This document shows positions 45,562 to 57,169 of a stretch of DNA of 64,000 nucleotides, one piece after another. Numbering within the stretch: the stretch's first letter is position 1; each line of letters starts with the position of its first letter. The DNA comes from Micromonospora halotolerans. Lineage in GTDB: Bacteria; Actinomycetota; Actinomycetes; Mycobacteriales; Micromonosporaceae. The position numbers and the translations under genes are program-made. The notes below the pieces were generated by a model. The model had not been told where the DNA came from and searched no databases. It worked only from the letters and a program-made list of their open reading frames with translations. The DNA is taken from positions 2,480,001 to 2,544,000 of the forward strand of contig NZ_CP134876.1 in the NCBI RefSeq assembly GCF_032108445.1, read 5' to 3'.

Positions 45562-46347
45562 CTACCGCCGCTTCAGGCAGAGCACGAAGTCGAGGGTGTC
45601 GAGCCGGCTGTCGAAGAAGTACCAGTCGGTGTAGCCCTCGACCTTGGCGCACTTCGACTCCGCGTCCTTCTTGCCGCTGGTCGACCCGTCGATGCGGCGC
45701 AGCACCTGGTAGGTCTTCGGGGCGCAGTCGGTGATCACCAGCTTCGGCTCGGCGGAGCCGCCCTCGTTGGCGACGCACTGGCCCGCCTTCACGAAGCGCG
45801 GATCCGTCGAGGAGGCCGGGGCCGGCGGGGTGGTGGGTGCCCCGGCCGGATCGCTCGCGGCCCCGGTCGGGGCGGCCGCCGGGGCGGACGGGGACACCTT
45901 CCCGCCCTCGCCCGCGTCGTCCCGGCCGAGCAACCAGTAGGCCCCCGCCCCGCCGAGCAGCAGCACCGCCAGCACGACCAGGACCACCAGCAGTGGCCCC
46001 CTGCCGCGCTTGGGCGGCGTCGGCTCGGCGTACGGCGGCTGGCCGCCGTAGCCCGGATCGGCCGGGTAGCCCTGGTAGCCCGGATCGGCCGGGTAGCCCT
46101 GGTAGGGCGGCGCGGCCGGCGGCGGGCCGGCATTCCAGGCGGGGCCCGGCTCGTAGCGCGGGGTCGACTGGTCGTAGCGCTGCGCCGGCGGCTCGTAGTG
46201 CCGGGTCGGCGGCTCCTCCCAGCCGCCCGGCTGCCCGCCGTAGCCGGGGTCGTAGCGCGGATCGGCCGGCGGAGCGTACCCGTCGTCGGGGCGCCGTCCA
46301 CCCCACGGCTCGGGGGAGCCGCCGCCCGGTGGTCCGAAGTTCGACAT
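45562..46347 (-). CDS. LppU/SCO3897-like membrane protein
   Basis: A 261-residue protein. Residues 1-115 are Pro/Gly/Tyr-rich with two copies of the heptad GYPADPGYQ-type repeat, then one membrane helix (about 120-142), a Pro/Ala linker, and an extracellular 80-residue domain (KAGQCVANEGG, ITDCAPKTYQVLRRIDG, SKCAKVEGYTDWYF, FVLCLKRR) with four cysteines like the LppU/SCO3897 family. Function unknown. Confidence 0.75.
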   Translation of the reverse strand: MSNFGPPGGGSPEPWGGRRPDDGYAPPADPRYDPGYGGQPGGWEEPPTRHYEPPAQRYDQSTPRYEPGPAWNAGPPPAAPPYQGYPADPGYQGYPADPGYGGQPPYAEPTPPKRGRGPLLVVLVVLAVLLLGGAGAYWLLGRDDAGEGGKVSPSAPAAAPTGAASDPAGAPTTPPAPASSTDPRFVKAGQCVANEGGSAEPKLVITDCAPKTYQVLRRIDGSTSGKKDAESKCAKVEGYTDWYFFDSRLDTLDFVLCLKRR

Positions 46348-46433
46348 GAACGCCCTCCTGCGTACGCCAGTGCTGAGAGGCCGGCCACCAACAGGAGACG
46401 CCGACGCCGTGGTCACCGTAGCGTGGTCCACCG

Positions 46434-47441
46434 ATGAGCTCACGCCCCACGAGTGCGACGCCCGCCGTCGACCACGCCGCCGCCCCGGCCCGTCCCGCCC
46501 TGATCTGGACCGCGCTGGTCCTGGTCTACGTGCTCTGGGGCTCGACCTACCTGGGCATCCGGGTCGCGGTCGAGTCCCTGCCGCCGCTCACCTCCGCCGC
46601 CATGCGGTTCGCCGCGGCCGCGGCGGTGCTCGCCATGGTGCTGCGGCTGCGCCGCGGTCCGGGGGCGCTCCGCGTCGACCGGCGGCAGCTCGGCACCGCC
46701 GCGCTGGTCGGCGTGCTGCTGCTGGCCGGCGGCAACGGCCTCGTGGTGCTCGCCGAGTCCGGCCCGGAGGGGACCGCGGTGCCCTCCGGCATCGCCGCGC
46801 TGCTGGTGGCCACCGTCCCGCTCCTCGTGGTGCTGCTGCGGACCGTCGGCGGGGACCGCCCCCGGCCGTGGACCTTCGCCGGCGTCGCCCTCGGCTTCGT
46901 CGGTCTCGTGCTGCTCGTCCTGCCGAGCGGCGGGTCGGGGAGCGTGCCGCTGGTCGGCGCGCTGACCGTCGTGGCCGGCGCGGTCAGCTGGTCGGTCGGC
47001 TCCTACCTCTCCGGGCGGATGCGGATGCCGGACGACCCGTTCGTGGCCACCGTCTACGAGATGCTCGCCGGCGCGGCGGCGCTCGCCGTGATCGCCGCCG
47101 TCCGGGGCGAGCTGCAGGGATTCTCCCCTGCCGAGGTGACCGGCCGCTCGTGGGCCGCGCTGGCGTACCTCATGGTGGCCGGCTCGCTGGTCGCCTTCAC
47201 CGCGTACGTCTGGCTGCTGGCCCACGCCCCGATCTCCCTGGTCTCCACCTACGCGTACGTGAACCCGGCGGTCGCGGTGGCGCTCGGCGCGCTGTTCGTC
47301 GCCGAGCCGGTGACCGCGCAGGTGCTGCTCGGCGGCGCGGTGATCGTGGTCGGCGTCGCCGTGGTGGTGAGCACCGAGCGTCCGCGCCGTTCGGCGGCAC
47401 CACGCGTCGACGGGGCGGCCCCGGAGCCGGCCCGCCGGTAA
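46434..47441 (+). CDS. EamA-family (DMT) transporter
   Basis: A 335-residue protein with ten membrane segments in two EamA repeats. YVLWGSTYLGIRVAVESLPPL opens the first and TAYVWLLAHAPISLVSTYAYVNP marks the second, as in YedA-like exporters. Substrate unknown. TAGCGT ends 9 nt before the ATG, suggesting a leaderless transcript. Divergent from the LppU-like gene. Confidence 0.92.
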   Translation: MSSRPTSATPAVDHAAAPARPALIWTALVLVYVLWGSTYLGIRVAVESLPPLTSAAMRFAAAAAVLAMVLRLRRGPGALRVDRRQLGTAALVGVLLLAGGNGLVVLAESGPEGTAVPSGIAALLVATVPLLVVLLRTVGGDRPRPWTFAGVALGFVGLVLLVLPSGGSGSVPLVGALTVVAGAVSWSVGSYLSGRMRMPDDPFVATVYEMLAGAAALAVIAAVRGELQGFSPAEVTGRSWAALAYLMVAGSLVAFTAYVWLLAHAPISLVSTYAYVNPAVAVALGALFVAEPVTAQVLLGGAVIVVGVAVVVSTERPRRSAAPRVDGAAPEPARR

Positions 47442-47452
47442 CGTTCCGGCCC

Positions 47453-48202
47453 GTGTCGGCCGGGCTGGTGGCGGGTGTCGCGCTCCTCGGCGCGCTGGCC
47501 GGCCGGGCCGCCGACCCGCTCGCCCGACTCTCCGTCCGCTCTCGGCTGCCCGCCGGGCTGCCGGTTCCGGCCTTCCTTCCCCGTGGCGTCGCGTGCTCGG
47601 GTGCCTCGTCCGCCACGTCCTCACGGTCGGTCGCCCGGCGTCGTGGCGTGCCGTCCGGCGCCGGCCCGGGCCGCCGCGGCAATCGGCTCGGGGTGACGCT
47701 GGCCGGGGTTGTGGTCTTCGGCGGGCTCGCCGCCGCGCGGGCCGGCGACCCGGCGTTGCCCGCGTTCCTGGCCGTGGCGGCGATCGGGCTGGTGCTCGCC
47801 CTCGTGGACCTGGCCTGCCTGCGGCTGCCCGACCCGCTGGTGGCCGCCACGGCGGGCGCGGGCGCGCTGGGCCTGGTTCCGGCCGCGCTGGTCGGCGGCA
47901 CGCCGGGACGCCTGCTGACCGCCCTCGCCGGTGCGGCCGTCTCCTTCGCCGGGTACGTGCTGCTCGCGCTGCTGCCCGGTGCCCGCCTCGGCTTCGGGGA
48001 CGTCAAGCTCGCCGCCGCGCTCGGCCTGCCGCTCGGCTGGCTCGGCTGGCCGGCCCTGGGCCTCGGCCTGCTCCTCCCGCACCTGCTGAACGGGGTCATC
48101 GTCCTCGCCCTGCTCGCCGCCCGCCGGGTCCGCCGGGACACGCCGCTCCCGTTCGGCCCGGCGATCCTGGCCGGCGCCTGGCTGGCGGTCCTGCTCGCCT
48201 GA
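47453..48202 (+). CDS. prepilin peptidase (A24 family)
   Basis: A 249-residue aspartic membrane protease for type IV pilin-like signals. The catalytic aspartates are in LALVDLACLRLPDPL and GFGDVKLAAALGLPLGW. The N-terminal methylase domain is missing, as is common in actinobacterial Tad-type enzymes, and a 40-residue Ser/Arg-rich insertion lies after the first helix. No pilus genes are nearby. The GTG start is 11 bp after the EamA stop. Confidence 0.85.
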   Translation: MSAGLVAGVALLGALAGRAADPLARLSVRSRLPAGLPVPAFLPRGVACSGASSATSSRSVARRRGVPSGAGPGRRGNRLGVTLAGVVVFGGLAAARAGDPALPAFLAVAAIGLVLALVDLACLRLPDPLVAATAGAGALGLVPAALVGGTPGRLLTALAGAAVSFAGYVLLALLPGARLGFGDVKLAAALGLPLGWLGWPALGLGLLLPHLLNGVIVLALLAARRVRRDTPLPFGPAILAGAWLAVLLA

Positions 48203-48255
48203 CTCCCGCTCCCGCCGCCGGTGGGCGCGTTGACCGGGGCCCCCTGCTGGGCGTC

Positions 48256-48275
48256 AGGAAGGGACCCCTCCTTTC
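48256..48275. terminator. short inverted repeat between prepilin peptidase and helicase fusion
   Basis: AGGAAGGGACCCCTCCTTTC folds back on itself with one mismatch between the convergent genes. The longer context (48236-48275) has a composition unlike coding sequence and may belong to a dispersed intergenic repeat. Confidence 0.45.
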
Positions 48276-51200
48276 AGATCAGGCGGAGTTGGCGGTCGCG
48301 AGGGCGGCGGGGTTCGGTGTCGCCGAAGCGCTCGAACAGCCCCGGGTCGATCACGTCGAGGAACGGGGTGGGGCGGCACTCGCGCTCCGACCCGTGCCGC
48401 GTACGCCGGGCCGCGTGGCTCACGTAGAGCCGGTCCTGCGCCCGGGTCAGCCCGACGAAGAAGAGCCGCCGTTCCTCGGCCACCGCGTCGTCGTCCGGCT
48501 CCTGCCCGGGCCAGCGCAGCGGCAGCAGCCCGTCCTCGGCGCCGACCAGGAAGACCACCGGGAACTCCAACCCCTTCGCCGCGTGCAGGGTGAGCAGGGT
48601 GACCGCCTCGGCGCGCGGGTCGAGGGCGTCCACCTCCGCCCCGGTGGCGAGTTGGGCGAGGAACAGCTCCAGGTCGTCGCCGCAGCGCCGGGCCAGCGGG
48701 GTGAGCAGGTCGACCGCGGTGCGGACGTCCTCGGGGCGTACCGCGCCGGAGCCGTCGAGGGTCGGCACGGCGAAGCGCTCCGCCAGGATCTGGCCGGCCA
48801 GCCGTACCCGGGCGGTGAGGGAACCGTCGAGCCCGGCGTGCCGCAGCTCGCGGGCGATGGCGGTCACGCCCGGCCGGTCGCGCAGGCGGTCGTGCGAGCG
48901 CTTCTGCACGGGAATGTTCGCCCGGGCCAGCGCGTCCACGATCGGCGCGGCCTGCGAGTCGGTGCGGTAGAGCACCGCGATGTCGGAGAACGACAGCGAG
49001 GTTGCCCGACCGTCGATCCGGCCCGAGTCCAGCGAGCGGTGGGAGAGGCCGCCGACCAGGTCGTCGATGGTGCGTACCAGGAAGTCGGCCTCGTCCGCGA
49101 CGGAGGTCGCGGCGTAGCGACCGACCAGCGGGGCCTCCGGGTCGAGCCGGGCCGGGTCGAGGCGGCGGCCGCGGACCAGCGACGACGGCGCGATGGCCTG
49201 CACGGCGGCGGCCAGGATCGGCGCCGACGAGCGGTAGTTGCGGTTCAGCCGGACCAGCCGGGCGTCGGTGAAGTCCTGGGAGAAGCGCAGGAAGTAACCG
49301 ACGTCCGTGCCCCGGAACGAGTAGATCGCCTGGTCGGGGTCGCCGATCGCGCAGAGGTTGCCGTCGGCGGGGCTGAGCAGCCGGAGCAGGTCGTACTGGA
49401 CGGCGTCGACGTCCTGGTACTCGTCAACGAAGATCCACTTCCAGCGCTCGCGGTACTCCCGGACCAGCTTCCTGTCGCCCCTCAGCAGCGCCACCGGCAG
49501 GGTGAGCAGCTCGTCCAGGTCGACCAGGTCCCGCTTGCGCAGCAGCGCGGCGTACCGCTCGTCGTCCTCGCCGGCCTCCGCGCGGGCGGCGGCCCGGTCG
49601 GCGTCGTCGGCGATCCGGAAGTCCGCCGGCAGTCCCGCGGCCGGCGCGTTCTCCCGCAGGATGGTGAGGCCCAGCGAGTGGAAGGTGCCGACCGTGACGT
49701 CCTCGGCCACCGGGCCGAGCAGCCCGTCCAGCCGGTGCCGCAGCTCCTCGGCCGCCCGCCGGGTGAAGGTGATCGCCAGGCACTGCTCCGGGAAGACGTT
49801 CAGCTCCGCGCACAGGTAGGCGATCCGGTGGGTGAGCGTCCGCGTCTTGCCGGTGCCCGGGCCGGCCACGATGAGCAGCGGACCGCCCGGCGCCGAGGCG
49901 GCCACCCGCTGCATCGCGTCGAGCCGGTCCAGCAGCCCGGTGCCGACCTCCTCCATCCCGGCGAGCATCGGCTCGAACGGCTCGTGCGGGGAGGGTGCCG
50001 GCGCGATCGGTGGCGGGGGCGGCGGGGCGGGCTTGCGCTTCGGCTCCGCCTTGGCCGCCGCCGGGCGCCGGGCCCTGGGCTTCGCCGCCGGCTCCGCGGG
50101 CTTCCGCTGCGCGGGCACGTCGAAGAGCGTGTCCTGGCCGGCGCCCCCGGTCGACGACCCCAGCTCGGCCGGGTCGAAGAGCGTGATCACTCCGTACTCG
50201 CCGTCGTAGCCGGGGACCCGGCGCACCTCGCCGCGGCGCAGCCGGCCGATGCCCTCGGCGAGCAGCTCGCCGCCGATTCGGCCGATCTCGTCCAGCGGGG
50301 TACGGGTGAGGATGTCCAGCTCCGGGCCCAGCGCGGCGATCAGCTCGTGGAGCTTCCCCTCGACCTTCTTGGAGCGGGCGCCGACCTTGTTGAGCTCGCC
50401 GAGGATCTCGGCCAGCGGCACCAGGTGGGTCACCTCCCGGGCGTGCGCCGGCCGGTGTCCCTCGGGCCGGTCGGCCAACTCCGCCACCCGGCTCAGCACG
50501 CCCACCGTCAGCGGCTTCCCGCACTCCGGGCAGCGCCCGCCGGCCTCCCGGGTGCGCTCCGGGGACCAGTTCACGCCGCAGAGCCGGTGCCCGTCGGCGT
50601 GGTACTTGCCCTCCTCCGGGAAGAACTCGATGGTGCCGGCCAGCCCGTCGCCGGTGCGCAGGGCCTCGCGGATGGCGAAATAGTCCCGCCCCGAGTCGAG
50701 GACGGTGGCCTCGCGGGCCAGCGCGGGCGGCGAGTGGGCGTCCGAGTTCGACACCAGCTGGTAGCGGTCCAGGCTGCCGACCCGCCAGTTCATCTCCGGG
50801 TCGGAGGAGAGGCCGGTCTCCACGGCGAAGATGTGCTCGGCCAGGTCGGCGTAGCAGTCGGCGATGGCGTCGAAGCCGGACTTCGAGCCGAGCGCGGAGA
50901 ACCAGGGCGTCCAGATGTGCGCCGGCACCAGGTAGCCGTCCGGGCTGGCCTCCAGCGTGATCTCCAGCAGGTCGCGGGAGTCCAGCCCGAGGATCGGCCG
51001 GCCGTCCGAGCCCAGGTTGCCGATCCGCCCCAGCGCCGCGTTGAACCGGGCCACCGCGTCCAGGTCCGGCAGGTAGATGAGGTGGTGCACCTTCCGCGTC
51101 CGGTCGTCCCGCTTGTAGATCGTGGAGATCTCCACGCTGAGCATGAACCGGACCGGGTCCGCCTCCGCCGCGCTGGCCAGCCGGGGCGGCAACCGCCGGG

Positions 51201-51474
51201 CGATGTCCCGCTCCGCCTCCGGGCTCAGCCGGTAGAGGCCGGGCTCGGCCGGATGCAGGGTCTCGCGCAGGTGGTCGTACCAGGCGGGGTGGGTGAAGTC
51301 GCCGGTGCCGAGGACGCCGATGCCCTTGCGTCGGGCCCACCAGCCGAGGTTCGGCAGGGTCAGGTCACGGCTGCACGCGCGCGAGTACTTCGAGTGGATG
51401 TGCAGGTCCGCGACGAACGACGGGGGGCCACCGGAGGGTGCGGCGTTGAACGGAGGCACGCCGCATCCTGTCAC
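48274..51474 (-). CDS. endonuclease Q-UvrD/Rep helicase fusion
   Basis: A 1066-residue protein. Residues 20-290 are a PHP nuclease domain (DLHIHSKYS at 23-31, GTGDFTHP at 56-63) and a zinc site follows (C299, C315, C318). Both closely resemble EndoQ, which nicks DNA 5' of deaminated bases and abasic sites. A Pro/Ala/Lys linker (465-500) leads to a complete SF1A helicase: AGPGTGKT (537-544), VDEYQDVDAVQYD, GDPDQAIYSFRGTD, NRNYRSS, LHAAKGLEFPVVFL and VGLTRAQDRLYVS. One chain would couple lesion nicking with unwinding. Confidence 0.9.
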   Translation of the reverse strand: MTGCGVPPFNAAPSGGPPSFVADLHIHSKYSRACSRDLTLPNLGWWARRKGIGVLGTGDFTHPAWYDHLRETLHPAEPGLYRLSPEAERDIARRLPPRLASAAEADPVRFMLSVEISTIYKRDDRTRKVHHLIYLPDLDAVARFNAALGRIGNLGSDGRPILGLDSRDLLEITLEASPDGYLVPAHIWTPWFSALGSKSGFDAIADCYADLAEHIFAVETGLSSDPEMNWRVGSLDRYQLVSNSDAHSPPALAREATVLDSGRDYFAIREALRTGDGLAGTIEFFPEEGKYHADGHRLCGVNWSPERTREAGGRCPECGKPLTVGVLSRVAELADRPEGHRPAHAREVTHLVPLAEILGELNKVGARSKKVEGKLHELIAALGPELDILTRTPLDEIGRIGGELLAEGIGRLRRGEVRRVPGYDGEYGVITLFDPAELGSSTGGAGQDTLFDVPAQRKPAEPAAKPRARRPAAAKAEPKRKPAPPPPPPIAPAPSPHEPFEPMLAGMEEVGTGLLDRLDAMQRVAASAPGGPLLIVAGPGTGKTRTLTHRIAYLCAELNVFPEQCLAITFTRRAAEELRHRLDGLLGPVAEDVTVGTFHSLGLTILRENAPAAGLPADFRIADDADRAAARAEAGEDDERYAALLRKRDLVDLDELLTLPVALLRGDRKLVREYRERWKWIFVDEYQDVDAVQYDLLRLLSPADGNLCAIGDPDQAIYSFRGTDVGYFLRFSQDFTDARLVRLNRNYRSSAPILAAAVQAIAPSSLVRGRRLDPARLDPEAPLVGRYAATSVADEADFLVRTIDDLVGGLSHRSLDSGRIDGRATSLSFSDIAVLYRTDSQAAPIVDALARANIPVQKRSHDRLRDRPGVTAIARELRHAGLDGSLTARVRLAGQILAERFAVPTLDGSGAVRPEDVRTAVDLLTPLARRCGDDLELFLAQLATGAEVDALDPRAEAVTLLTLHAAKGLEFPVVFLVGAEDGLLPLRWPGQEPDDDAVAEERRLFFVGLTRAQDRLYVSHAARRTRHGSERECRPTPFLDVIDPGLFERFGDTEPRRPRDRQLRLI

Positions 51475-51553
51475 GCCCGGTCCTCCGGCCGCCCGCCGCC
51501 ACGCGTACGCGTGACCTGAGCAATGCGGTGCTGGACCGGGCGGCCCGGACGCG

Positions 51554-52948
51554 CTATGGGGCGCGCAGCTCGACGAGGGTCACCTGCGGCGGCGCGCCCA
51601 CCCGGACCGGCGGACCCCAGAAGCCGGCGCCGTTGGTGACGTAGACCTTGGTGCCGTCCACCTCGCCCAGGCCGGAGACGACCGGCTGCTGGAGCTTCAC
51701 CAGCAGGTTGAACGGCACCATCTGGCCGCCGTGGGTGTGCCCGGACAGTTGGAGGTCCACGCCGAACTTCGCCGCCTCGTGCGCGGCCACCGGCTGGTGG
51801 GCCAGCAGCACGACGGGGCGGGACGGGTCTCGGTCGCCGAGTGCGGCGGCGTAGTCGGCGGGGGCTGCCAGCCCGGTGCCGGCGGCCGTGACGTCGTTGA
51901 CGCCGGCCAGGTCCAGCACGCCGCCCCGCGCCCGGATCTCCTGGCGCTCGTTCTGGAGCACCCGCAGGCCGAGCCGGTCCACCTCGCGCACCCACTCCTC
52001 CACACCGGAGTAGTACTCGTGGTTGCCGGTGACGAAGAAGCTGCCGTAGCGCGAGCGCAGGTCGCGCAGTGGTTCCGCGGCCGGGCCCAGCTCGGCCACC
52101 GAGCCGTCGACCAGGTCACCGACGACGGCAACCAGGTCGGCGTCGAGCCGGTTGATCATCGCGACGATCCGCTCGGTGTGCGCCCGGCCGCGCAGCGGCC
52201 CGAGGTGGATGTCCGAGACGGTGGCGATGCGCAGCCCGTCCATGGCGCGGGGCAGCTTGGCCAGCGGGATCCGCACCCGGTCCAGCCGGGGCGGTCCCAT
52301 GGCGGTGCGTACGCCGTACCCGGTGACGCTCGCGGCGGTGAGCCCGGCGAAGATGGCGGCGCCCCGGGCCAGCAGCAACCGGCGGGACGGGTCGTGGTCC
52401 GGCGCGGCGGTCGGGGTGTCGGTGCCGGGCGGCGGATCGCCCGGACCGCCGGCCGAGGGGGCGGGTTCGCCGGCCGGCGCCTCCGACGGCCCGGCCGGCC
52501 CCACGGCCGGCGGGTCCGCGAGCGCGACGGGCGACGCCGACGCGCCGCCGGCCGGCACCCGGTCCTGCCCAGCGGCGAGGTTCCCCCGACCGGCGGTGGA
52601 TCCGGCCGGGACCAGCGCCGGCTCGGAACCGGTGGCGGTGGCGGGCTCGCGGCGGCGCAGCACGAGCTTCACGACCGCCGTGGGCACCTCCAGCACCAGC
52701 AGCAGCACCAGCAGGTAGAACATCAGGGCCAGCCAGAGGTAGCCGGGCCAGGCCAGCCACTGGGCGCCGCTGCGGGTGCCCGCCATGGTGGCCGGCACCA
52801 GCAGCGCCAGCAGCAGCGCGACCAGCCCGCCGGCCTTCCGCAGGCGGCCCGGGCGGGTGGTGTCCCGCACCAGCCGCTTCCACAGGTAGAGGTGGATCAG
52901 GGCGGTGACGAGCACGGCGAAGCCCACGAACGACGCCATCGCCAACAC
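51554..52948 (-). CDS. membrane metallophosphoesterase
   Basis: A 464-residue protein with four N-terminal membrane segments (to about 100), a Pro/Ala/Gly-rich stretch, a further hydrophobic segment near 190-210 and a calcineurin-like domain. Metal-site motifs are VSDIHLG, VGDLVDG, TGNHEYYSG and LSGHTHGGQM. It resembles the YkuE group of phosphoesterases. Substrate unknown. Just downstream of moaD on the same strand. Confidence 0.9.
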   Translation of the reverse strand: MLAMASFVGFAVLVTALIHLYLWKRLVRDTTRPGRLRKAGGLVALLLALLVPATMAGTRSGAQWLAWPGYLWLALMFYLLVLLLVLEVPTAVVKLVLRRREPATATGSEPALVPAGSTAGRGNLAAGQDRVPAGGASASPVALADPPAVGPAGPSEAPAGEPAPSAGGPGDPPPGTDTPTAAPDHDPSRRLLLARGAAIFAGLTAASVTGYGVRTAMGPPRLDRVRIPLAKLPRAMDGLRIATVSDIHLGPLRGRAHTERIVAMINRLDADLVAVVGDLVDGSVAELGPAAEPLRDLRSRYGSFFVTGNHEYYSGVEEWVREVDRLGLRVLQNERQEIRARGGVLDLAGVNDVTAAGTGLAAPADYAAALGDRDPSRPVVLLAHQPVAAHEAAKFGVDLQLSGHTHGGQMVPFNLLVKLQQPVVSGLGEVDGTKVYVTNGAGFWGPPVRVGAPPQVTLVELRAP

Positions 52949-53208: not shown

Positions 53209-54225
53209 TCAGCCTCCGATCGCCGACATGGGGCGGGCGGGTTGCAGGAAGGTGGGGTCGTCGATGCCGTGCCCGGCCCGCTTGCCCCACATCGCGGCAC
53301 GCCAGCGGCGGGCCAGCTCCTCGTCGTCCGCCCCGGCGCGCAGTGCGCCGCGCAGGTCGGACTCCTCGGTGGCGAACAGACAGTTGCGGACCTGACCGTC
53401 GGCGGTGAGCCGGGTCCGGTCGCAGTCGCCGCAGAACGGCCGGGTCACGCTCGCGATCACGCCGACCCGGGCCGGACCACCGTCCACCAGCCAGGTCTCG
53501 GCCGGGGCGGCCCCCCGCTCGCCGGGATCGGCGGTCAACGCGAACTCGGCGCGCAGGGCGGCGAGGATCTCGTCGGCGACGACCATGGTCGACCGGTCCC
53601 AGCCGTGCTGGGCGTCCAGCGGCATCTGCTCGATGAACCGCAGCTCGTAGCCGTGGGCCAGGGCGAAGCGGAGCAGCGCGGGCGCCTCGTCGTCGTTGAC
53701 CCCGCGCATCAGCACGGTGTTGATCTTCACCGGGGTCAGCCCGGCCGCCGCCGCGCCGGCCAGCCCGGCCAGCACGTCGGCGTGCCGGTCCCGACGCGTC
53801 AGGTCGGCGAACCGCGCGCGGTCCAGGGTGTCCAGCGAGACGTTGACCCGGTCCAGCCCGGCGGCGCGCAGGGTGGGCGCGAGGCGGTCCAGGCCGATGC
53901 CGTTGGTGGTCAGCGAGATGCGCGGGCGGGGCTCCAGCGCGGCCACCGCCGACACGATGCGGGGCAGGCCGGGCCGGATCAGCGGCTCGCCGCCGGTGAA
54001 GCGGACCTCGGTGACGCCGAGCCGCTGCACGGCCACCCGGATCAGCCGGACGATCTCGTCGTCGTCGAGCAGCTGCGGCCCGGCCAGCCACGGCAGCCCT
54101 TCGGCGGGCATGCAGTAGGTGCAGCGCAGGTTGCACTTGTCGGTCAGCGAGACCCGGAGGTCCCGGGCGATCCGGCCGTAGCGGTCGACGAGGACCCCGT
54201 CGGTCGTCGTCGGGGCGGCGGTCAC
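53209..54225 (-). CDS. moaA: GTP 3',8-cyclase MoaA
   Basis: A 338-residue radical SAM enzyme for the first step of molybdenum cofactor synthesis. The SAM cluster motif is CNLRCTYC, followed by [10 protein letters not shown]. The second cluster is in [10 protein letters not shown]...NCLF, and the C-terminus ends in the catalytic GG (SAIGG). GTG 54225 overlaps the stop of the fructosamine kinase gene (GTGA). Confidence 0.96.
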
Positions 54226-55136
54226 CCGTCGACCGTAGCGCGTCCGGCGCCGCGCAGTGCGGCGCGGGCGACGGAGTCCACCGCCGACCGGTACGCGGCC
54301 CCGAACAGCGCGGTGTGCACCAGCAGCAGGTGGAGCTGGTGCAGCGGCACCCGCTCCCGCCAGCCGTCGGCCAGCGGCCACGCCTCCCGGTAGGCGGCCG
54401 TGATCCGGTCGAGGTGCGGCGGGCCGCCGAAGAGGGCGAGCTGGGCCAGGTCGGTCTCCCGGTGGCCGCCGTGCGCGGCGGGGTCCACCAGCCAGACCCG
54501 GTCGTCGATGCCCCACAGGAGGTTGCCGGGCCACAGGTCGCCGTGGATCCGGGCCGCCGGCTCGTCGCCGCCGAACTCGGCGATCCGGTCGATCAGCTCC
54601 TCGACCGGGCGGGTCTCCGCCGTGGTGAGCGCGCCGTTGTCGACCGACATCCGCAGGTAGGGCAGCAGCCGTCGCTGCGCGAACCACGCCGACCAGGGAC
54701 CCGGGTCGGGCGTGTTGTCCTGCGGCAGCGCGCCGATGAACCCGGGCCACTCGGCGCCGAAGGCGGGGGCGCCGGCCCGGTGCAGCCCGGCCAGCTCCCG
54801 GCCGAACAGCTCGGCCGCCTCCGGCGTCGGCTCGCCGGGCTCGACCCAGTCGAGCGCCAGCAACTCGGGCAGCGCCACCACCACCTCCGGTACGGCGACC
54901 GTGCCGGCCTCGCGCAGCCAGCGCAGCCCGGCCGCCTCGGCGGTGAAGAAGCCCTCGGGCGCGGCCCGTTCCGCGTGCTCGGGCCAGGTCTTGGCGAAGA
55001 CCGAGTGCCCGTCGTCCAGGGTGAGCCGGGACGCGGCGCAGATGTCCCCGCCGGAGACCGGGGTCTCCCGGATCCGCTGGTGGGTCAGGAAGGTCGGCAG
55101 GTGCTCCGGGTGTGCCCGCAGGTACGCCAGGTCCAT
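54222..55136 (-). CDS. fructosamine kinase-family protein
   Basis: A 304-residue kinase-fold protein. [22 protein letters not shown] covers the nucleotide-binding strands, [13 protein letters not shown] the catalytic loop and [17 protein letters not shown] the metal-binding motif. The family phosphorylates ketoamines on glycated proteins. It is translationally coupled to moaA by a GTGA overlap. TACGTT ends 6 nt before the ATG, suggesting a leaderless start for the kinase-moaA-moaD operon. Confidence 0.9.
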
Positions 55137-55231
55137 GAGCGCAACGTAGCCGGTCCGCGCGGCCGGCGCGGGCCGTGCACGGCTCAGCGGCGTGCCGTTC
55201 CTCGCCCACCTGGCCCGATACTCTCCGTGTC

Positions 55232-55257
55232 TGTGGACAACCCGCGTGTCGTCCACA
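55232..55257. promoter_or_regulatory. inverted pair of DnaA boxes at the DUF4192 promoter
   Basis: TGTGGACAA (55232-55240), the reverse of the consensus TTGTCCACA, faces TCGTCCACA (55249-55257), one mismatch from consensus. A -10-like TACTCT (55219-55224) ends just before them, so bound DnaA would sit at the transcription start. Confidence 0.6.
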
Positions 55258-55298
55258 GGGCCTGTCGGGCCGGCACCCGTGCGCCGCACGCTCCCGGC

Positions 55299-56309
55299 AT
55301 GAACTCCACGGAGCGTCCCCGCCTCGCCGTCCGCTCGCCCGCCGACCTCGTGGCCGCCGTGCCGTACCTGCTCGGCTTCCATCCCGCCGACAGCGTCGTG
55401 GTGGTGGCGGTGCGCGGCCGGCGGGTCGTCTTCGCGGCGCGGGGCGACCTGCCCGAGCCGGGCAGCGACCCGCGTCCGGCCGCGCGGCACCTGGCCGAGG
55501 TGGTGGCCCGCCAGGGCGCCGACGCCGCCACCGTGCTCGGCTACGGCCCGGCCGCCCGGGTCACCGGCGCGGTCGACGCGGTCGGCGAGGCTCTGGACCA
55601 GGCCGGGCTCGTCGTCCTCGACGCGCTCCGAGTGACCGAGGGGCGCTGGTGGTCCTACCTCTGCGCCGAGCCGGCCTGCTGCCCGCCCGAGGGCACCCCC
55701 TACGACCCGGCGGCCAGCCAGATCAGCGCGGCGGCCGTCTTCGCCGGTCAGGTCGCCCTGCCCGACCGTGCCGCGCTGGCCGCGCAGGTGGCCCCGATCG
55801 CCGGGCCGGTCCGGGTGGCCATGCGCCGTGCCACCGCCCGGGCCCACGACCGCCTGGCCGGGCTCGCCGGAGACCCTCCCGTCAGGTCCGCGGGGGTGGC
55901 GGCGGTGCGCGGCGCGTTCCGGCGGCACCGGCGCGGCGAGCGCCTGGGCGACGACGAGGTGGCCTGGTTGACCGTCCTCCTCACCCACCTCCCGGTCCGC
56001 GACCACGCCTGGTCCCGCACCGACGGCCGGAACGCCGACATCGGTCTCTGGACCGACGTGCTGCGCCGGGCCGAGCCGGAGCTGATCGCCGCCCCGGGTT
56101 GCCTCCTGGCCTTCGCCGCCTGGCGGGCCGGGCACGGCGCCCTGGCGGCGGTCGCCCTGGAACGGGTGCTCGCCGCACATCCCGGCTACCCGCTCGCCGT
56201 GCTCCTCGACGACGCGCTCCGCCGCGGGCTGTCCCCGTCCGAGCTGGACGGCTGGCCGGCGACCGCGGGCACGGTGCTGCGCCGCCGGCGGCGCCGTCCT
56301 CACCGGTGA
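55299..56309 (+). CDS. DUF4192 domain protein
   Basis: A 336-residue protein of a conserved actinobacterial family of unknown function. The diagnostic N-terminal segment is [24 protein letters not shown]. It is soluble, Ala/Arg-rich and ends in an Arg-rich tail. ATG 55299 precedes the domain closely. Divergent from the kinase-moaA operon across a region with DnaA boxes. Confidence 0.9.
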
Positions 56310-56314
56310 CCGGC

Positions 56315-57169
56315 TCAGCCGGGCACGCGCTGCGCCCCGGTGTAGACGTTCATGGTCCCGCCGCGCAGGAAGCCGACCAGCGTCATCCCGGCCTCCTCGG
56401 CCAGGTCGGCGGCGAGCGTGCTGGGCGCGGAGACCGCGGCGAGCAGCGGGACGCCGGCCATCCACGCCTTCTGGGTCAGCTCGAAGCTCGCCCGGCCGGA
56501 CACCAGCAGCAGATGCCCGGCCAGCGGCAGCCGGCGTTCCCGCACGGCCCAGCCGACCACCTTGTCCACCGCGTTGTGCCGGCCGACGTCCTCGCGCAGC
56601 ACCACCAGCTCACCGTCGGCGGTGAAGAGGCCGGCCGCGTGCAGGCCGCCGGTGCGGTCGAAGGCGCGCTGGGCGGCGCGCAACCGATCGGGCAGCCCGG
56701 CGAGCAGTTCGGCGGTCACCGCCAGCGGATCGTCGCGGACGGCGAACTGCGAGCGGGTCCGGACGGAGTCGATGCTCGCCTTGCCGCAGACCCCGCACGA
56801 GCTGGTGGTGTAGAAGTTCCGGGCCGGGTCGGTGACGGGCTCCGGCACTCCGGGGGCCAGCACCACGTCGACCACGTTGTAGGTGTTGGGGGTCTCCGCC
56901 CCGGCGCAGAGCTGCGCGGTGCGCACGTCGTCGGTCGACCGGATCAGCCCCTCGGTGAGCAGGAAGCCGATCGCCAGGTCCAGGTCGTCGCCGGGGGTGC
57001 GCATGGTCACCGCGAGCGGCTTGCGCCGGCCGGGGCCCGGCGGGCCCACCCGGATCTCCAGCGGCTCCTCCACGGCCAGCGTGTCCGGTCGGCGGATCCG
57101 CGCCCGCCCGTCGGCCGCCGCGTCGAGGTCGATCCGGAGCACGCCCCGCCGGTCAGTCGCCCGTCCCAT
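56315..57169 (-). CDS. fdhD: formate dehydrogenase accessory sulfurtransferase FdhD
   Basis: A 284-residue protein that transfers sulfur to the molybdenum cofactor of formate dehydrogenase. The CGVC motif in [13 protein letters not shown] and the C-terminal [13 protein letters not shown] are typical. It implies a formate dehydrogenase elsewhere; none is in this window. An ATG at 57178 is a possible alternative start. Divergent from mobA. Confidence 0.94.

Follow-up and report, generated by a model that had tools for sequence, protein, structure and literature searches.

The window analysed here is the whole stretch of 64,000 nucleotides from Micromonospora halotolerans (contig NZ_CP134876.1, positions 2,480,001 to 2,544,000), and its source genome is a single contig of 6.96 Mb. 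On the minus strand, the window carries a gene for endonuclease Q (EndoQ) fused to a helicase of superfamily 1A (SF1A), the PcrA/UvrD/Rep type. A preliminary description, made from the sequence, had placed both parts in one frame at 48274 to 51474 and left out the strand; our analysis bears out the single frame. The protein also has two short motifs of the type that binds the sliding clamp, and we suggest that it is an excision repair enzyme tethered to the clamp. The features of the gene are as follows.

48274..51474, minus strand: the whole gene of the EndoQ-helicase fusion, 1066 amino acids (aa), with a GTG start and the stop at 48274-48276
50170..51417, minus strand: EndoQ core, residues 20-435, comprising the PHP nuclease domain, the zinc-binding domain and a C-terminal part with the end GYDGEYGVITLF; recognised by the match to EndoQ of Pyrococcus furiosus (PfuEndoQ) and by invariant residues
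50521..50589, minus strand: zinc-site residues H296, C299, C315 and C318, located by structure alignment; the counterpart in PfuEndoQ is four Cys
49945..50160, minus strand: low-complexity linker rich in Pro, Ala and Lys, residues 439-510, read from the sequence; its conservation is low save for L450 and F451
50122..50136, minus strand: clamp-type motif QDTLF in the linker, residues 447-451, located where the Q-x-x-L-F end of stand-alone bacterial EndoQ lies
48325..49944, minus strand: SF1A (PcrA/UvrD/Rep-type) helicase, residues 511-1050, with shortened 1B and 2B insertions; recognised by Pfam and NCBIfam matches, motif residues and spacings
48277..48291, minus strand: clamp-type motif QLRLI at the extreme C-terminus, residues 1062-1066, recognised by its conservation in relatives

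It is virtually certain that the fusion itself is real. The 120 database matches listed are 1059-1085 aa long and 89-97% identical to the fusion protein. The best relatives among the matches listed are from M. chersina, with 97% identity over the whole protein, and from Micromonospora sp. MA102, with 99% over the EndoQ part. The databases label the protein either 'UvrD-helicase domain-containing protein' or 'uncharacterized protein (TIGR00375 family)'. Of the named loci, the best 80 of at least 585 confirmed, 76 have a complete fused frame that is 980 aa or longer and in which no fewer than 450 of the 556 helicase residues are matched. A frame error or an assembly artefact was rejected because the 120 listed matches are similar in length and the frames are complete at 76/80 loci. 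The four other loci stay outside the motif counts given below; the frame of L054 breaks within the helicase (EndoQ and 401 helicase residues are present), the contig of L116 ends inside the helicase, and those of L073 and L110 end before it. The 76 complete fusions come from Micromonosporaceae, Pseudonocardiaceae, Nocardiopsidaceae, Jiangellaceae, Frankia, Rhodococcus and others, including one metagenome-assembled genome (MAG) of Acidobacteriota (L102). In a second Acidobacteriota MAG (L110), the sequence stops before any helicase region, and the partial protein P0208, labelled Acidobacteriota, has both domains. The fusion is a stable chromosomal gene that is widespread and built of known parts.

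Frame 1 of 48274-51474 on the plus strand does not give the fusion protein. An antisense open frame of 1308 aa (47593-51519, plus strand) spans the whole fusion gene; it had no match in a Pfam scan and is probably a by-product of high GC content. A location of the fusion gene on the plus strand was rejected, as the longest plus frame across the gene has no Pfam match.

The N-terminal half very likely carries EndoQ-type nicking, to judge from its homology and its conserved residues. When residues 1-458 were compared with solved structures, PfuEndoQ (5zb8, 7k30-7k33) was the sole molecule at E <= 0.001, with E values of 2e-43 to 1e-42. Residues 22-83 and 109-432 of the fusion align with residues 5-66 and 70-382 of PfuEndoQ, so that the match covers the whole EndoQ chain and not the PHP part alone. 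In this alignment E115, H130, H186, G221, S223, D245 and H247 are paired with E76, H84, H139, G169, S171, D193 and H195 of PfuEndoQ. These residues are kept in 44/44 aligned fused proteins (43 of the 80 loci, hand-picked for spread, and the window protein; alignment A2) and in 120/120 stand-alone bacterial EndoQ, which are the best 120 of 8000 scored. It is reported in a passage of PMC8307549 that replacement of E76, H84 or H139 abolishes the activity of PfuEndoQ and that G169 and S171 are pocket residues.

The preliminary description had based the EndoQ assignment on DLHIHSKYS, GTGDFTHP, C299, C315 and C318; all of these are present, and the fourth zinc position is H296. The resulting His-Cys-Cys-Cys site is found in 44/44 fused and 120/120 stand-alone bacterial EndoQ, and the first position is Cys in PfuEndoQ. 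Histidine is a usual zinc ligand. The description had also considered that this half might match only generic PHP phosphatases or lack the ligands, and we found EndoQ structures as the sole match at E <= 0.001, with the catalytic metal ligands in place and a zinc site of three Cys and one His, which departs from the four-Cys form. A generic PHP phosphatase or exonuclease was rejected, since EndoQ structures alone match and the pocket residues are kept.

The stand-alone EndoQ proteins of P. furiosus, Thermococcus kodakarensis, Methanosarcina acetivorans and Bacillus pumilus share with the fusion the EndoQ core, the catalytic Glu and His, the pocket Gly and Ser and the zinc site, and in both a clamp-type motif follows directly after the core. 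The bacterial enzyme of B. pumilus is reported, in an excerpt of the source, to be active on uracil, hypoxanthine and abasic sites. Known EndoQ proteins are stand-alone (about 400-425 aa in those examined), whereas the fusion adds a helicase behind the core. It also differs in that its EndoQ motif is internal, one zinc Cys is changed to His in comparison with PfuEndoQ, and a second motif stands at the protein end.

The helicase half gave a PF00580 match of 3e-63, and PF00580 and PF13361 were both above the cut-off. The SF1A motifs tested are all present (Walker A, DExx, GDxxQ, the motif IV Arg, motif V and the motif VI Arg), and K543 of Walker A, D684/E685, Q715, R837, E970 and R1011 are invariant in 44/44 aligned fused proteins. 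The helicase had been described as complete, which holds for the core motifs but not for the 1B and 2B insertions, which are not of full size. We take these insertions to sit within the intervals between motifs Ib and II and between motifs IV and V, respectively. The two intervals measure 88 and 127 residues in the fusion, against 133 and 213 in a PcrA-like protein and 138 and 143 in a UvrD2-like protein of the same genome (both labels are our own naming), and such short spacings indicate that the insertions are shortened. Three further frames of the genome have weaker, partial UvrD-type matches; given the two other relatives, the fusion is not the sole UvrD-type helicase there.

The core motifs are common to PcrA, UvrD and Rep, whereas the shortened 1B and 2B, the clamp-type end and the position behind EndoQ set the fusion helicase apart from them. 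The PcrA-like protein of the same genome has a long tail, which the fusion helicase lacks. PcrA, UvrD and Rep move in the 3'-to-5' direction, and by analogy the helicase half would unwind in the same direction.

Both clamp-type motifs had been missed in the preliminary description. In the 44-sequence alignment, L450 and F451 are the sole invariant columns between 437 and 518, and Q1062 and L1065 are the sole invariant columns beyond 1038. The LF of the linker is found in 76/76 complete named relatives, 14-28 (mostly 18-21) residues past the GYDGxYG core. The C-terminus reads Q-x-x-[LM]-hydrophobic in 75/76 and QLxL[LIF] in 64/76; the exception, L085 from Saccharothrix algeriensis, has GTQLSLL and then 16 more residues before the stop. 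With one hand-chosen sequence per genus or MAG, the linker motif was present in 36/36, where shuffles predict 1.12, and the C-terminal motif in 35/36, where they predict 0.05; these controls ignore shared ancestry, though the linker around the motif has diverged freely.

Among the stand-alone bacterial EndoQ, 115/120 have Q-x-x-[LMI]-hydrophobic as their very last residues, often in the form QKTLF, and this end lies 15-25 residues past the GYDG core (at 18 in 89 of the 119 measured). Such a C-terminal motif at the equivalent place explains the linker motif of the fusion. Passages of PMC4858679 report that archaeal EndoQ binds PCNA through a C-terminal PCNA-interacting protein (PIP) box and already note that bacterial EndoQ proteins have C-terminal clamp motifs. 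The clamp-binding consensus is given in a passage of PMC9690074 as QL(S/D)LF. C-terminal copies of the fusion family such as QLSLL, QETLF, QVTLF and QLTLI resemble this consensus, and QLRLI and QDTLF of the window protein are looser than the strict form. The C-terminal motif is the stronger case of the two, and docking on the clamp by at least one of them is likely from the pattern of conservation. Three of the eight helicase-less actinobacterial EndoQ also have an LF-type end (L175 with APTLFE, L176 with PELFD and L198 with QPRLF).

The ends of the PcrA-like and UvrD2-like proteins of the same genome showed no motif like the C-terminal one of the fusion. The NucS protein of this genome ends in DELTLF. 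The two frames of the genome with the strongest IMS (PF00817, DinB-type) matches have QLTLG and QLTLP within their last 60 residues (NucS and these two frames are our rows L184, L185 and L186). Comparable with the fusion is NucS/EndoMS, a repair nuclease common to archaea and actinobacteria with a clamp-type motif at the C-terminus; it acts on mismatches, however, has an unrelated fold and has no helicase. An interaction of NucS with the clamp is reported for Corynebacterium glutamicum in an excerpt of the source. With these two motifs, the fusion is better modelled as an enzyme probably tethered to the replication clamp than as an autonomous one.

A survey of fused and separate genes across actinobacteria had been proposed, and our counts indicate that the fused form is widespread in the family and that helicase-less copies exist in some lineages. 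Within the family, TIGR00375 matched 105 of the 121 genomes sampled, and 98/105 of these matches lie in open frames of at least 900 aa; around two of the seven shorter frames (G363 and G379), there was no helicase within 12 kb. The EndoQ alignment search of the order-level sample gave a match in 68/298 genomes, of which 65/68 are in frames of at least 900 aa. In one genus, probably Streptomyces (the genus of G023), 9/392 genomes matched, one of them weakly and in part. The other 8 comprise 2 fused copies, 1 split into two frames with an adjoining helicase and 5 without a helicase within 11 kb; absence of a helicase means here and above that tblastn found none within the 10-12 kb examined around EndoQ. 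At the split copy, L197, the EndoQ frame stops within the linker, and the helicase lies beyond that frame.

Stand-alone EndoQ candidates (P0243-P0362) are plentiful in bacteria, and the named ones include Paceibacterota, Staskawiczbacteria, Nealsonbacteria, Omnitrophota and Hakubella. Four of them (P0246, P0253, P0343 and P0349; 415-422 aa, PF27218 only) are labelled 'DNA helicase UvrD' in the databases, which is perhaps a carry-over from fused relatives.

In a tree of 63 EndoQ rows, the 36 rows labelled fused stand on one side of a branch with 100/100 support; 35 of these were seen to be fused and L110, labelled fused in both our trees, was assumed to be so. Nested among the fused ones are six rows labelled stand-alone, of which P0160 is the split gene of the genus-level sample above and P0189 bears the name of a partial protein. 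The same picture came from a second, quicker tree that included more helicase-less rows, save for L177, which has a very long branch and an unsure placement. The simplest account of these trees would be one fusion followed by several losses of the helicase (L199-L202; L198; L175/L176). The distances of the EndoQ and helicase parts of 44 proteins are correlated at 0.83, and 0/1000 permutations were as high; vertical inheritance alone would give this correlation. It suggests that the two halves are inherited together.

Our reading of the fusion is that of a clamp-tethered nick-and-unwind excision repair enzyme, to which we give a probability of roughly 0.58. The EndoQ half would flip out a deaminated base (uracil, hypoxanthine and perhaps xanthine) or an abasic site and cut the phosphodiester bond 5' of the lesion, leaving a 3'-OH and a 5'-phosphate; EndoQ homology and the kept catalytic and pocket residues suggest this nicking step. 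The tethered SF1A helicase would load at the nick and, if it moves 3'-to-5', travel on the intact strand. From the geometry and from what is known of the family, this is the useful direction, as the helicase would then peel the lesion strand off as a 5' flap and expose the template for a polymerase that extends the 3'-OH. The C-terminal QLxL[LIF], and probably the linker xxLF as well, would dock the protein on the beta sliding clamp, as their conservation suggests, so as to place the enzyme at replicated DNA and hand the nick to clamp-bound enzymes. The linker motif would be the counterpart of the C-terminal clamp motif of stand-alone EndoQ, and the C-terminal motif would have come with the fusion.

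It is plausible, as proposed earlier, that the protein cuts at a deaminated base before it unwinds the DNA, and we somewhat favour such coupling of nicking and unwinding. The proposal of a self-contained repair route did not hold, as the Pfam and NCBIfam scans found no domain for polymerase, 5'-flap cleavage or ligation in the protein. Because a polymerase, flap removal and a ligase are still needed and UDG-family and EndoV genes are present, 'self-contained' was an overstatement. A wider view, that the fusion is a one-protein, clamp-tethered alternative excision machine of actinobacteria, in which EndoQ nicks, its own helicase peels and the two motifs (an old one from EndoQ and a new one behind the helicase) keep the enzyme at the fork and hand the 3'-OH over to the polymerase, is tentative and a little short of even odds.

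Several points weigh against the clamp-tethered nick-and-unwind enzyme, in addition to the neglect of shared ancestry by the shuffles. The proposed search with TIGR00375, a hypothetical-equivalog model, did give a match, but its score of 151 bits is below the curated cut-off of 326.6. EndoQ membership therefore rests on the structure-sequence match and the residues and not on that model; NCBI names close bacterial relatives 'endonuclease Q family protein' despite the sub-cut-off score. The PcrA, UvrD and Rep equivalog models all match the helicase half below their curated cut-offs (the best NCBIfam model, TIGR01073/PcrA, scores 363 bits against a cut-off of 911 bits), which makes it a relative of these helicases and not PcrA, UvrD or Rep itself. 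In a phylum-wide sample, the EndoQ alignment search gave a match in 7/396 genomes, so the gene is far from universal. EndoV, the partner of EndoQ in one published model as given in an excerpt, has a match in 95/105 EndoQ-positive and 12/16 EndoQ-negative genomes of the family, many of them weak, without a clear tie, and an EndoV partnership inferred from co-occurrence was rejected for this reason. The Gln of the linker motif is at -3, its canonical place, in 23/76 relatives (all Micromonosporaceae), at -4 in 20/76 and at neither place in 33/76. Moreover, 5/8 helicase-less actinobacterial EndoQ (L177 and L199-L202) have no LF-type end, which suggests that the motif is dispensable in some lineages.

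The two activities could also be uncoupled, with the fusion as a co-recruitment in which the helicase acts elsewhere, at replication-transcription conflicts or R-loops, and EndoQ uses ordinary strand displacement by a polymerase. The long low-complexity linker between the halves and the seeming loss of the helicase in at least three lineages that retain EndoQ are in agreement with this, and one published model, in a passage of PMC4357722, requires polymerase strand displacement and Fen1 only. However, the joined state is kept across many genera, more than chance neighbours would be, and we regard uncoupled activities as unlikely. The LF and QLxLL motifs might, alternatively, have a binding partner that is not the beta clamp. 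Short motifs are degenerate, and the linker copies without Gln and the helicase-less EndoQ without such an end, both counted above, would fit another partner. Such a partner nevertheless appears rather improbable, as the C-terminal copies resemble the clamp consensus, the linker motif sits where stand-alone EndoQ ends and where archaeal EndoQ has its PIP box, and NucS of the same genome has a similar end.

The frames that neighbour the gene in the window are the following.

46346-48202, plus strand: neighbouring frame
51554-52948, minus strand: neighbouring frame
53209-55209, minus strand: neighbouring frame
54222-56465, minus strand: neighbouring frame
54315-56309, plus strand: neighbouring frame

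The matches listed for these frames are a YaeI/LpxG-type metallophosphoesterase (below the cut-off), MoaA, fructosamine kinase, DUF4192 and an A24 prepilin peptidase. The main ones recur at 8-15 of the 40 loci compared (40 of the 80, 16 of them Micromonosporaceae; open frames were counted, shadow frames included), all of these being Micromonosporaceae, and none of the recurring neighbours has a relative at the loci outside this family. A PADLOC scan of four neighbour frames gave one weak mad8 match (2.8e-4) and nothing else. A mobile or phage origin of the gene was rejected, as searches of viral-contig, phage and plasmid collections brought up no EndoQ relative.

Defence against foreign DNA, in which EndoQ would nick phage DNA with uracil or odd bases and the helicase would aid degradation in a Gabija-like manner, is very improbable: a passage of PMC8307549 mentions possible antiviral roles of Bacillus EndoQ and many GajB models of PADLOC match the helicase half, which might be expected of any UvrD-like helicase, but EndoQ is matched in most of the sampled family genomes and in none of the mobile-element collections, the neighbours recur within Micromonosporaceae, look like housekeeping genes and gave PADLOC a single weak match, and repair is the better fit for the clamp-type motifs. 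The UvrD-like helicases of defence systems, Gabija GajB among them, are likewise paired with a nuclease, whereas the nuclease of the fusion is EndoQ in the same chain, and no GajA or other defence gene was recognised among the four neighbours scanned. The Gabija nuclease is a separate protein with a different fold.

For regulation, the stretches upstream of the gene in the window and the loci were scanned for SOS-type and PafBC-type patterns. SOS-type sites with up to 3 mismatches were found upstream in 27/80 stretches against 8/80 mononucleotide shuffles, a control that ignores dinucleotides and relatedness, and the best such site in the window has 4 mismatches. The PafBC-type pattern upstream of the gene was not above shuffles.

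The same genome has four matches to the UDG superfamily (uracil-DNA glycosylases) and one EndoV match. EndoQ as a stand-in for a missing uracil glycosylase was rejected in view of the four UDG-superfamily matches, which make redundancy with the fusion likely. A helicase that acts after EndoQ has been invoked before, in the legend of Fig. 10 of PMC4357722, and a 2021 review states in a passage (PMC8438529) that the EndoQ nick is repaired by helicase, FEN1, polymerase and ligase. We found no published description of an EndoQ-helicase fusion in full-text searches, which covered few subscription papers. The sequence family is known to databases, and its description as a clamp-tethered EndoQ-helicase may be new.

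The range of EndoQ was given in a passage of the same 2021 review (PMC8438529) as Euryarchaea and a few bacteria, and it is widened here to an actinobacterial family, other actinobacteria, Acidobacteriota MAGs and many stand-alone bacterial candidates. The events after the EndoQ cut are unsettled in print, and a natural fusion found across many genera makes this step testable in one protein. If our reading is true, the one-protein machine would fill in the 'helicase step' that EndoQ repair has been missing, and it would offer deaminated bases in genomes of very high GC content a route that needs no glycosylase. Genomes rich in GC stand to lose many cytosines to deamination, so a dedicated repair route in them would be of interest.

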